Assembly: GCA_021776565.1 (NCBI GenBank)
Contig: JAJFFQ010000023.1
Location: forward strand, 1 to 64,000
DNA length: 64,000 bases
Direction: 5' to 3'
DNA from: Robiginitomaculum sp.
GTDB lineage: Bacteria; Pseudomonadota; Alphaproteobacteria; Caulobacterales; Maricaulaceae
A program made the translations under genes and the position numbers. The stretch's first letter is position 1, and each line of letters starts with the position of its first letter. Shown in pieces: positions 41,489 through 45,478 of the stretch. The notes beneath the pieces are model-generated. The model had not been told where the DNA came from. It did no database searches and saw only the letters and a program-made list of their open reading frames with translations.

Positions 41489-42048
41489 GCGATAATTCAG
41501 GGGCCGCCATTATCAACTTTGCCCCGGCTGCAAAATTACAGCTGGAAGGCAAGGTGCGACGCCTGACCATGGAACGTGACGCGCTGATACAAACCATGCG
41601 TACCAACCATGCCAGCACCGCGCAAATTCATGGTGCTGCTCTGGCACTGGTCGATGCCCGCGATCTGAACATGCTGGATCAACGTCTGGCCGGTCATGTG
41701 CGTCGCTCTCTTGGTGCCGATGTCTTGCGGGTGCTGGTGGAGGGCTTGCAACCGCCGCCGGATACCAAGGCCATACTGGGCGCCCCCAAGGGGCTGGTGG
41801 TGCGCGTTATGGGTAGCCATGCGGAACGCCTGGGGCCGTGCCAGCAACACGCCCGGGATATTTTTGGTCAGAAAAGCGACGCTCTGGCGTCCGAGTTGCT
41901 TTTGCGGCTTAGTGTGCATGGTCGTGAAGGCATGTTTGCACTGGGCAGTCGTGATCGGCTGACCTTCAAACCGGATCAGGGCACCGATCTGGCAGCCTTT
42001 CTTGCCCGCGTTGTTGAGCGGCTGGTGGCGGCATGGGCACCGGTCTGA
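41485..42048 (+). CDS. DUF484 family protein
   Basis: 187 residues. A short N-terminal coiled stretch ([20 protein letters not shown]) is followed by a GAF-like domain, ending in the [20 protein letters not shown] and [20 protein letters not shown] segments typical of DUF484. In gammaproteobacteria DUF484 (YigA) lies directly before xerC, and the same order holds here with overlaps on both sides (4 bp with talC, 16 bp with xerC). A functional tie to XerC has been suggested by context only. Confidence 0.88.
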
Positions 42049-42980
42049 AAACCCCTGCCCATGAGGCACTGGTCATTTTTATCGAGCATTTGCGCGCTGA
42101 ACGACGCCTGAGTCAAAATACATTATCTGCCTATGAGCGTGACCTGGACGCCTTTTTTGCGCATTTGCGCGATTACCGGGGCGAAAGGGTTGACCTGTTC
42201 CTGCTGAAAAATCTAAGCGCCCAGGAATTTCGCAGCTATCTGGCCGCGCGGCGCCGGGGTGATACACCGCTCTGCTCACGTTCACTGGCCCGGGCGCTCT
42301 CCTCCATTCGCAGTTTTTACCACTATGCAGAGCGGCGTTGGGACATCAAAAACGATCAGCTTTCGCTGATCGAAGGACCAAAGCTGGCCCGTACCACCCC
42401 AAGGCCATTGTCCACACAAGCGGCAAGGGAGGTGCTGAGCGAAAGCGCCAGACCCGCTGCGGGGGTTGCGCCATGGATTGTGGCCCGGGATAGCGCCCTG
42501 CTGACCCTTCTTTACGGGGCCGGACTTCGCATTGCCGAGGCGCTGGCGCTCACCGGTGCCGAATTACCATTGGGCGAGGTTTTGCGCATTATTGGCAAAG
42601 GTAATAAAACCCGCCTTGTTCCCTTATTGCCCGCAGCAAGAGAGGCCGTTGAAGTTTATGTGCAAACCTGCCCATTTCCAATGACCCCCGACGGGGCAAT
42701 TTTTCGAGGCGCGCGCGGCGGGGCCATGGGGGCACGAGCCGCACAAAAACTGATGCAATCCATACGCGCAAAATTGGGTTTGCCAGCCAGTGCAACACCC
42801 CATGCCCTGCGCCATTCATTTGCCACACATTTGCTGGCAGGCGGTGGGGATTTGCGCGCGTTACAAGAACTTCTTGGTCATGAGAGCCTGTCCTCAACAC
42901 AGATTTATGCAGATGTGGATGCAGCATCGCTTTTGCGCATTTATGACAAAGCGCACCCCAAAGGAAACCGGCCCCGATAA
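42033..42980 (+). CDS. xerC: Tyrosine recombinase XerC
   Basis: 315 residues. The N-terminal SAM-like core-binding domain (about 10-110; LSQNTLSAYERDLDAFFAHL) precedes the catalytic domain with arginine in LLYGAGLRIAEALAL, the lysine in IGKGNKTRLVPL, HALRHSFATHLLAGG, the second histidine in LLGHESLSSTQIYADV and the tyrosine nucleophile within it. It resolves chromosome dimers at dif together with XerD. XerC rather than XerD is chosen because of the DUF484 neighbour. It overlaps the preceding gene by 16 bp. Confidence 0.9.
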   Translation: MGTGLKTPAHEALVIFIEHLRAERRLSQNTLSAYERDLDAFFAHLRDYRGERVDLFLLKNLSAQEFRSYLAARRRGDTPLCSRSLARALSSIRSFYHYAERRWDIKNDQLSLIEGPKLARTTPRPLSTQAAREVLSESARPAAGVAPWIVARDSALLTLLYGAGLRIAEALALTGAELPLGEVLRIIGKGNKTRLVPLLPAAREAVEVYVQTCPFPMTPDGAIFRGARGGAMGARAAQKLMQSIRAKLGLPASATPHALRHSFATHLLAGGGDLRALQELLGHESLSSTQIYADVDAASLLRIYDKAHPKGNRPR

Positions 42981-43049: not shown

Positions 43050-43805
43050 ATGACGACCATGCCTGACTCCAGCGCAATTGAAGCGTATTTCCCATATTTT
43101 ACCGGCATACATGGTGCCGCCAATATGGATGAACTGGTGAGCTGTTTTGATGCGCTGGTCAAAGCTGTTGGCATGGAGTTATTTTGCCTTTACGAGCTGG
43201 AATCAGTTGGTACAAATTGGCGAAAACAACTGGTAATCGGCACATTCTCTGCCACTTTTTTGGAGGCATTTTGGCGCGATCGCCGCACATTCGATTCCTC
43301 CATAATCCGCTATACCAAGATACACGGCCAGCCTTTCACCGCAGGTGATGTTGTAAGTGATTATGAGAAGTTGACCCCAAAGGAGCGCAAATCCCTGGAA
43401 AAGGCTGCCAAATCCGGCATGACAGACGGTATTGTCTTTCCACTAAAGGGTCGTGTTGATCGCGTTGCCGGTGTTACCCTGACCGGGGATACAAAGCTGC
43501 TGGATGCAGACCTGATCTGGGTGCTTTCGTGTTTGAGCGTTGGTCTTTATCAACGTGCCTGCGCTTTGGACAATCGCCCCAAGCCAGAGTTTAACCATAA
43601 TAGCACCGGTTTTCTGACTGAACGCGAGCGTGAATGTCTGACCTGGGTGGCCATAGGCAAGACCGACAAGCAAGTTGCCGACACGTTGGGGATCACTGAA
43701 CGCACCGTAAAGTTTCATATCATCAATGCAAAAACAAAACTTAACGCCAAAACGCGTCTGCAAGCCGTCATTACCGCCCTGAATAATGTAGAAATACTAA
43801 TTTGA
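43050..43805 (+). CDS. LuxR-type transcriptional regulator (solo, autoinducer-binding-like N-terminus)
   Basis: 251 residues. The N-terminal part (about 15-170) has the fold pattern of autoinducer-binding domains. The C-terminal GerE/LuxR helix-turn-helix is clear: FLTERERECLTWVAIGKTDK and LGITERTVKFHIINAKTKL. No luxI-type synthase is in the window. In the ligand pocket the D of the D-P pair appears kept (TFDSSI), but the proline is serine, and the tryptophan expected in a PFxW segment is missing (GQPFTAGD). The usual acyl-homoserine-lactone contacts are thus incomplete. Another ligand, or none, is likely; alignment by eye is rough. Confidence 0.88.
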   Translation: MTTMPDSSAIEAYFPYFTGIHGAANMDELVSCFDALVKAVGMELFCLYELESVGTNWRKQLVIGTFSATFLEAFWRDRRTFDSSIIRYTKIHGQPFTAGDVVSDYEKLTPKERKSLEKAAKSGMTDGIVFPLKGRVDRVAGVTLTGDTKLLDADLIWVLSCLSVGLYQRACALDNRPKPEFNHNSTGFLTERERECLTWVAIGKTDKQVADTLGITERTVKFHIINAKTKLNAKTRLQAVITALNNVEILI

Positions 43806-43862: not shown

Positions 43863-43889
43863 GGTAAGTGATACAATCTATTCCACCCT

Positions 43890-43910
43890 CATCCTGAGCC
43901 TGTCGAAGGA
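43890..43910. repeat. Dispersed CTCATCCTGAGCCTGTCGAAGG-type repeat
   Basis: The stretch CATCCTGAGCCTGTCGAAGG is one of the most common short intergenic repeats in alphaproteobacterial genomes. Its function is unknown. Confidence 0.6.
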
Positions 43911-43959
43911 GAGGGAAAAAACCGGAGATAACCAACCGCTTATCCCCGCATCCATGCTC

Positions 43960-44078
43960 AAGGGTCACTTCAGGGTCACAGCCTGCCCCTCGGGCACCCT
44001 TCATGTGACCCTTGACTGACCCTTATGGTGGCTAATTTGTCCCTTAAACGATACTCAAATGACCCTTATTGTCCCTTA
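43960..44078. repeat. Helically phased array of TG(A/T)CCCTTA repeats
   Basis: Forward copies start at 44006 (TGACCCTTG), 44017 (TGACCCTTA), 44038 (TGTCCCTTA), 44060 (TGACCCTTA) and 44070 (TGTCCCTTA). Their spacings are 11, 21, 22 and 10 bp, i.e. near whole turns of the DNA helix. Two reverse copies (AAGGGTCA at 43960, CAGGGTCA at 43971) are 11 bp apart. Such phasing is expected of cooperative protein binding on one face of the DNA, as at arm-type integrase sites or iterons. It lies between two converging genes, so a promoter operator is unlikely. Confidence 0.75.
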
Positions 44079-44173
44079 TTTACTGGTGCTATCGCGACGG
44101 TAAACCTCGCTATATGAGCACGCTTTATCCCCACCCGCTTAAAACCAGATATAATCGTGCAATTTGGAAAATT

Positions 44174-45478
44174 TCAGGCATCCCGGTCATGGGCCAGTTT
44201 ACCGGCGACATAGGTACGGCGAACGGCGCGATCATCACCCAGGATCATCAATGCAAACAGCATCTCCTCAAACGTGCTTGCTTTGCCAAGGCGGCGCGTC
44301 ATCAAGGGGGTGGCGGCCAGATCAAGCACCAGAAAGTCTGCTTCCTTGCCGACAGTGAAATTGCCGACATGCTTGTCAATATGCAACGCCCGGGCGCCGC
44401 CCAAAGTAGCCATATAAAAGGCATCATACGGCGACAGGCTTTGTGCACGCATTTGCGCGACCTTATAGCCCTCATTCATGGTGGCAAAGCTGCTCAATGA
44501 TGTCCCGGCACCAACATCGCTGCCAAAACCAATGGTCATGCCCGCCTGTTGAGCGGCTGACATGTCAAACAGACCACTGCCCAAAAACAGGTTGGAGGTC
44601 GGGCAAAAGGCAATTGCGGCGTTGGCTTTTGCAAGGTCGTTTCGCTCGTCATCAGACAAGTGCACACAATGGGCAAATACCGAGCGGTCGGTGAGCAAGC
44701 CAGCGCGTTTGTAGACATCAAGATAATCGCGGGCCTCGGGAAATAACGCGCCAGCGCGGGCAATTTCCTGCTGGTTTTCACATAAATGCGTGTGCAGCAA
44801 AACATCCGGGTTTTCTTTTAGCAAACGCCCGGCAAGCTCAAGTTGTTCAGGGCTGGAGGTCAGGGCAAAACGCGGGGTCACCGCATAGCCGAGGCGGCCC
44901 TTGCCTCGCCATTTCCCGATCAGGGATTTACTGTCCTCATAACTTGATTGTGCGGTATCCATCAGTTCTGGTGGAGCGTGAGTATCCATCATCACCTTGC
45001 CAGAGATGAGACGCATATTTCGTTTCAAAGCCTTACCAAATAATGCATCTACGGTGTGAGCATAGGTGGTTGCAAACACCAGTGCCGATGTGGTGCCATT
45101 ACGCAGCAGTTCATCAAGAAAAAACGAGGCCGTGTCTTTGGCCCTGTCTTTGAAATTCATCAAGCCGATCTCGGCAGGAAACGCATAACGATCCAGCCAG
45201 TGCAATAAATGTTCCCCATAACCGCCAATAATATCCACTTGCGGGTAATGCACATGGGCATCGACAAAACCCGGCACAATCAGGCTGTCGGGAAGGTGTT
45301 GAACATTAAGCCCCCTGGTCATGTCGGCAAGGGCTTCGGGGGTATCAACGGCGAGAATGTGGCCATCCTCGATGACCAGTATCCCATCATCATAAACCAT
45401 GATGGTACCCGGTTCATCTGAATGGGCCGGATCACCGTTAAAGTGCAGAATTTTACTGCGCCATGCGGTGATGCTCAT
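44174..45478 (-). CDS. guaD: Guanine deaminase
   Basis: 434 residues, amidohydrolase superfamily. Metal ligands are in PGFVDAHVHYPQ, LLHTHLCENQQE, VFAHCVHLSD and GFGSDVGAGTS; SNLFLGSGLF and the ALHIDKHVGNFTVGKEADFL C-terminal signature are typical of guanine deaminases. It converts guanine to xanthine and ammonia, feeding the xanthine dehydrogenase encoded just upstream. Its start overlaps the allA stop (ATGA), and it is the last gene of the minus-strand purine operon. Confidence 0.95.
   Translation of the reverse strand: MSITAWRSKILHFNGDPAHSDEPGTIMVYDDGILVIEDGHILAVDTPEALADMTRGLNVQHLPDSLIVPGFVDAHVHYPQVDIIGGYGEHLLHWLDRYAFPAEIGLMNFKDRAKDTASFFLDELLRNGTTSALVFATTYAHTVDALFGKALKRNMRLISGKVMMDTHAPPELMDTAQSSYEDSKSLIGKWRGKGRLGYAVTPRFALTSSPEQLELAGRLLKENPDVLLHTHLCENQQEIARAGALFPEARDYLDVYKRAGLLTDRSVFAHCVHLSDDERNDLAKANAAIAFCPTSNLFLGSGLFDMSAAQQAGMTIGFGSDVGAGTSLSSFATMNEGYKVAQMRAQSLSPYDAFYMATLGGARALHIDKHVGNFTVGKEADFLVLDLAATPLMTRRLGKASTFEEMLFALMILGDDRAVRRTYVAGKLAHDRDA

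Follow-up and report, generated by a model that had tools for sequence, protein, structure and literature searches.

A helically phased TGWCCCTTA array beside guaD in Robiginitomaculum belongs to a dispersed, genus-specific element with a promoter-like layout

Small interspersed repeats are usually viewed as parasites or as simple palindromes, and one promoter region with phased upstream sites is rrn P1 of Escherichia coli, in which helically phased Fis sites are followed by the promoter, a leader hairpin, and boxA. The Correia elements (CREE) of Neisseria are short and dispersed, and have terminal inverted repeats, promoter activity, and an IHF site. As for the BOX elements of Streptococcus pneumoniae, we know of no phased binding array in them, nor of a fixed array-promoter-boxA layout. 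BOX elements, regarded by the authors as probably parasitic, resemble the element described here in being small modular interspersed repeats that are lineage-restricted, partly transcribed, and of low current mobility (PMC3049150). PHO boxes are made of 11-nt direct repeat units, with seven conserved and four less conserved nucleotides, which are bound head to tail (PMC4415409).

The element to which our locus belongs shares its phased upstream sites and its -10 with rrn P1, and a boxA leader as well in the copies that we call type II. However, E. coli rrn P1 has about three Fis sites, whereas the element carries about 10-12 short contiguous ones and is dispersed in dozens of copies, not before rRNA. 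Correia elements are not known to have a phased multi-site array or a boxA leader; the element has the former and, in type II copies, the latter. PHO box and OmpR-type sites usually consist of two to a few units near the -35, in contrast to the about ten units, plus inverted ones, that end about 53 bp before the -10 in the element. As regards REP, BIME, and REPIN sequences, the element includes REP-type palindromes among its modules in this species, but neither its array nor its right end is a REP.

The window, i.e. the whole stretch of 64,000 nucleotides (64 kb) that was analysed, contains 28 matches to TGWCCCTTA with at most one mismatch, seven of which lie inside 120 bp. By comparison, the densest 120-bp cluster in any of 400 first-order Markov sequences (64 kb each) held three such sites, so the five direct and two inverted repeats reported by the first-pass annotation of this DNA are real. 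The array sits in an element of roughly 350 bases, whose window copy and neighbours are as follows.

43050..43805, + strand: LuxR-family regulator gene with an autoinducer-binding domain, left neighbour; outside the element and not common to other species
43889..43910, + strand: REP-type repeat TCATCCTGAGCCTGTCGAAGGA, within the variable portion on the left of the element; blastn places it at many other sites, both in this genome and elsewhere in the genus
43924..43947: inverted box pair GGAGATAAC-CAACCG-CTTATCCCC, start of the conserved core; kept in nearly all of 22 aligned copies
43959..43978, - strand: two inverted units, 11 bp apart (43959-43967, TGACCCTTG; 43970-43978, TGACCCTGA)
43984..44078, + strand: direct array, with units at 43984 (degenerate), 43995 (degenerate), 44006, 44017, 44028 (lost), 44038, 44049 (degenerate), 44060, and 44070
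44086..44122: REP-like palindrome GTGCTATCGCGACGGTAAACCTCGCTATATGAGCACG, between the array and the promoter-like end; other elements have 0 to about 6 copies
44124..44172, + strand: conserved right end, TTTATCCCCACCCG - N - TATAAT - N - AATTTGG; could be aligned in every one of 26 copies from this genome
44150..44155, + strand: -10-like hexamer TATAAT; near-invariant in the own-genome alignment
44174..45478, - strand: guaD-like amidohydrolase gene, its stop codon abutting the element

Here, the matches at 44017, 44038, 44060, and 44070 (all +) are perfect, and those at 44006 (+), 43959 (-), and 43970 (-) have one mismatch. The degenerate direct units at 43984 (TGCCCCTCG), 43995 (CACCCTTCA), and 44049 (CGATACTCA), overlooked at first pass, fill the 11-bp ladder and have counterparts that are intact in other copies of the element, 44028 being the sole ladder position without a recognisable unit. 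The direct ladder of the window thus amounts to about nine units in steps of 10 or 11 bp. Among element copies generally, the array comprises 8-12 direct and 2-4 inverted units with a period of about 10.7 bp, which places all units on one face of the DNA. This helical phasing had been proposed from the window alone, and the period holds in five species, with a best value for CCCT sites of 10.6-10.8 bp (the signal being weaker in the fifth, G007, represented by five copies only) and with observed steps of 10, 11, 21, 22, 32, 43, 53, 54, and 64 bp. Phase is maintained across gaps of 53-64 bp where the units between have decayed. Moreover, the unit consensus, TGnCCCTTA, is essentially unchanged across six species and is the same in forward units and in the inverted ones, which other species also possess. 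Indels within the array come in multiples of 11 bp in 22 aligned copies, an outcome that slippage between units would equally yield.

We rejected an RNA hairpin across the array, as pair changes in the 22 copies were not convincingly above shuffles (42/500) and the consensus fold was nearly empty; the window copy of the array, taken alone, folds well (z -3.2). With no covariation-backed hairpin there, the units are treated as DNA sites. A CtrA site (TTAA-N7-TTAA) was also discarded: units often end in TTA(A) in this genome, but the consensus of each species shows TTAA only weakly.

The genome of the window (G000) is a draft of 2.9 Mb in 74 contigs, in which exact TGWCCCTTA occurs 89 times as against 22 for the reversed control. 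A blastn search with the array region added about 25 copies, 70-89% identical, and an array model gave 42 matches, overlapping or partial ones included. In all, the genome holds about 26-42 copies of the element, and relatives are similar (about 25 to 45 per genome in the genus). The first-pass annotation had taken chance recurrence of equally dense and phased repeats at many unrelated intergenic sites as a point against a specific site; the same array does recur at dozens of places, but these are homologous copies of one element. Their layout in this genome starts, in many copies, with a left end (...GGTTGGATAAGTTTGGGG), which is followed by variable REP palindromes and then by a core with the inverted box pair GGGGATAACC..CTTATCCCC, two inverted units, and as many as about nine direct ones. 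To the right come zero to about six REP hairpins and the right end ACTTATCCCCACCCG..TATAATCGTGCAATTTGG, which could be aligned in 26 of 26 copies, and nearly all right ends found in G000 adjoin an array. Many element copies lie at contig ends in these draft MAG assemblies; two of them (L026 1-141 and L033 1-141) are identical over about 140 bp and divergent afterwards, reflecting recent conversion or copying, or else assembly overlap. 16S rRNA was not found in the G000 assembly, nor in 16 of the 18 genus genomes overall, which is typical of MAGs.

Matches to the array model are present in 13 of the 18 genomes of the genus (marine Robiginitomaculum-type alphaproteobacteria, the named relatives being Robiginitomaculum sp. 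MAGs). Of the 84,980 species genomes searched, those with the strict right-end pattern all belong to this genus. In 40 other genera sampled from the order, phased CCCT triplets were at background level. The element stands at the guaD 3' end in six genomes (G000, G010, G012, G006, G003, and G002) and is missing there from the closest relative, G025, and from more distant genomes. In about ten further cases, the right-hand neighbours are orthologous between species, the left-hand ones rarely, and the retained right-hand genes include guaD, hemF, kynureninase, SDR, and others. The copies are therefore old and, once placed, remain beside the same right-hand gene across species. The converging-gene location noted at the outset is correct for the window, but is no rule for the family: 41 of 67 copies have a right-hand gene that faces them (p = 0.09). 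At the guaD and hemF loci of G012 and G002, a comparison of one species pair and two orthologous loci, the CCCT/AGGG cores were substituted at 3 of 77 positions versus 65 of 427 elsewhere (p = 0.006); other species pairs were individually non-significant, and the poorly aligned hemF pair of G012 and G025 went in the opposite direction. We also observed two guaD loci with elements (L090 and L102) in the single MAG G006, possibly a mixed bin.

Among the features that point to a promoter is a fixed distance from the array to the -10. In REP-free copies from ten species, the last CCCT of the array lies 52-54 bp, or five turns, from the -10 hexamer (G022 has 20 such copies, G012 has 13, and G000 has four; the seven other species contribute one or two each). 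The mean is 52.6 bp (sd 0.76, n = 46) in what is a selected set, REP-free and with a clear -10 assigned by a permissive script, so that the spread is that of the selection. Past the GGGATAA box, the gap sequence has about 20-50% identity between copies, mostly near chance; as it is mostly unrelated between species, its length is what is conserved. Several further copies have 62-63 or 72 bp, i.e. one or two turns more, with a unit missing, and some outside the 46 have other distances or lack a clear -10. In most G000 copies, REP hairpins interrupt the spacing, which then reaches 75-270 bp. Certain G012 copies (L109-L112, L115, and L120) have the terminator-like hairpin of the facing gene, CCCCCGCCATGATGGCGGGGG, with its T-run on the reverse strand, inside a gap of unchanged length.

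Type II copies continue downstream of the -10 with a covarying hairpin and then an rrn-type boxA, GCTCTTTGACA, identical to the boxA of rrn leaders in the same genus. Near-identical copies in G022 carry there a hairpin, boxA GCTCTTTGACAGGTAAATA, and a second hairpin, and a number of them end with a terminator-like CTTATCC..GGATAAGGTTTTTT. As an observation in its own right, G022 has about 40 near-identical dispersed copies of RNA-like units of ~170 nt (L149 1691-1873, and others in L147-L174), each ordered as hairpin, boxA, second hairpin, variable part, and terminator-like end. Counts of ATAAT-N28-41-GCTnTTTGACA were 42 in G008, 39 in G022, 37 in G024, 28 in G005, and 3 in the genome of the window, and essentially 0 in the reversed control. 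Because RNAalifold found almost no consensus for the full-length G022 RNA, probably owing to misaligned loops, the leader was tested instead. Leader hairpins are stabler than mononucleotide shuffles (mean z -2.7 for 23 leaders), and the leader stem has 14 double-changed cells (38 leaders, two genomes), a number equalled in 0 of 500 shuffles and far above slid controls. The transcribed part of type II copies has no Rfam match. A promoter driving an rRNA operon was rejected, with no rRNA beside the element copies scanned; no array precedes the rrn operons of G022 and G008.

The copy in the window belongs to type I and is derived. A REP palindrome separates its array from the -10, so that the distance from the last CCCT is 77 bp; there is no boxA, and the right end finishes 2 bp short of the guaD stop codon. 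No match to a sigma70 -35 was found in the window, and none is recognisable; the window also had no Rfam match. Transcription is predicted to start at about 44161-44164, toward guaD; a transcript, should one be made, would be antisense to that gene and would come from a promoter whose spacing appears disturbed by the REP. On the - strand, the box pair is terminator-like, with a stem-loop from 43948 to 43923 followed by GTTTTTT in the terminator scan. Viewed from guaD, this hairpin (CGGGGATAAG..TTATCTCCG plus GTTTTTT, 43923-43948) lies beyond the array, and the guaD transcript might read through the array, the hairpin being on its far side.

Judging from the sequence comparisons, our preferred reading, with a probability of roughly 0.6, is that the array would serve as upstream activating sequence to a promoter cassette that is dispersed and specific to the genus. 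A regulator protein would assemble along the phased units and recruit or position RNA polymerase at a -10 promoter without a -35. Our leading guess for the protein is a head-to-tail tandem binder, perhaps a winged-helix regulator of the OmpR/PhoB type, as contiguous 11-nt direct units have the geometry of PHO boxes; this guess follows geometry alone. From type II copies would come a structured RNA, roughly 170 nt long and protected by boxA. In type I copies, the window copy included, the RNA part would have been lost, and those of this species would have gained REP palindromes between array and promoter. No transcribed product is conserved among type I copies, which may drive weak antisense transcription or be in decay. 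Many of the promoter-like ends aim into the 3' end of the facing gene, an odd location for a promoter that counts against the cassette, as do the missing -35, the REP-broken spacing in most G000 copies, the deviating copies outside the 46, and the missing product of type I copies. The first-pass annotation, which held that this is not a normal promoter, was half right: the window end does point into the guaD 3' end, but REP-free arrays stand at their constant distance upstream of a -10 in ten species, and type II copies have a leader.

A parasitic, MITE-like non-autonomous element, in which the units are internal transposase sites and the ends imperfect terminal inverted repeats, seems to us rather unlikely. 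It fits a dispersed, modular repeat of variable REP content, and the left and right ends in G000 and G010 can be read as imperfect inverted repeats of about 45 bp; the near-identical copies in G022 and the about 140-bp stretch shared by two own-genome copies, maybe from recent copying or conversion, speak for it too. Yet reading the surroundings of copies revealed no transposase or autonomous element with matching ends, target-site duplications are not evident by eye in the flanks of these old copies, and G022 copies lack the left end, with no such resemblance of the ends seen in them. Moreover, positions are old and common to several species, and such an element has no need for a fixed array-to--10 spacing, a covarying leader, or boxA. 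The cassette family may nonetheless have spread by transposition, the two ideas being compatible. Mobility driven by RAYT was rejected, as PF01797 occurs in 6 of 18 genomes and does not track the distribution of the element, and so was BIME/REPIN membership, the array core not being a REP and having no RAYT link.

Improbable to a greater degree are chromosome-organising sites, on which a nucleoid or segregation protein would nucleate, the promoter-like end being incidental. Each genome has dozens of copies set well apart, the units are phased on one face across about 120 bp, and many copies sit on the 3' side of genes, all of which would suit such sites, but sites of this kind give no reason to expect a -10, a hairpin, and a boxA at a constant distance.

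Seven unrelated viral contigs (L079-L085) have 11-bp iterons with a TGWCCCTTR consensus, mostly inside predicted genes, of which several resemble replication initiators as judged by eye, and the TTATCCCC boxes are one base off a DnaA box. That the arrays are scattered remnants of origins, with iterons for a replication initiator of the phage or plasmid type, is nevertheless very doubtful: the viral candidate initiators have no Pfam match, the match is weak given how many iteron families exist, dozens of copies at conserved places are unlike origins, and the boxA leader and fixed promoter spacing are left unexplained. For the origin-like and chromosome-organising roles, both suggested at first pass, we found no positive evidence and consider them improbable. 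Finally, arm-type integrase sites can resemble such arrays and a tyrosine recombinase gene lies 1 kb off (42033-42980), but the idea of an attachment-site remnant of an integrated element has next to nothing left in its favour, since that recombinase looks like housekeeping XerC, the window has no tRNA, and the site is not unique, with dozens of homologous copies in many genomes.

To return to the promoter cassette, the conserved part of the element is laid out as a strong regulated promoter, with a one-face array, five turns of spacing, a -10, a hairpin, and boxA, and the family looks like a previously undescribed set of scattered genetic switches. More tentatively, and as a possibility we would not rely on, it may form a genus-wide regulon of dispersed non-coding RNA genes, with about 30-45 boxA-protected RNAs per genome under one regulator on a ten-site array, and with derived copies in some species that amount to array and promoter. 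If active, the elements would place dozens of scattered sites under one regulator, and their number, the spacing variants found in nature, and the interruptions by REPs would constitute a ready mutant set for the study of helical phasing and promoter dispersal.
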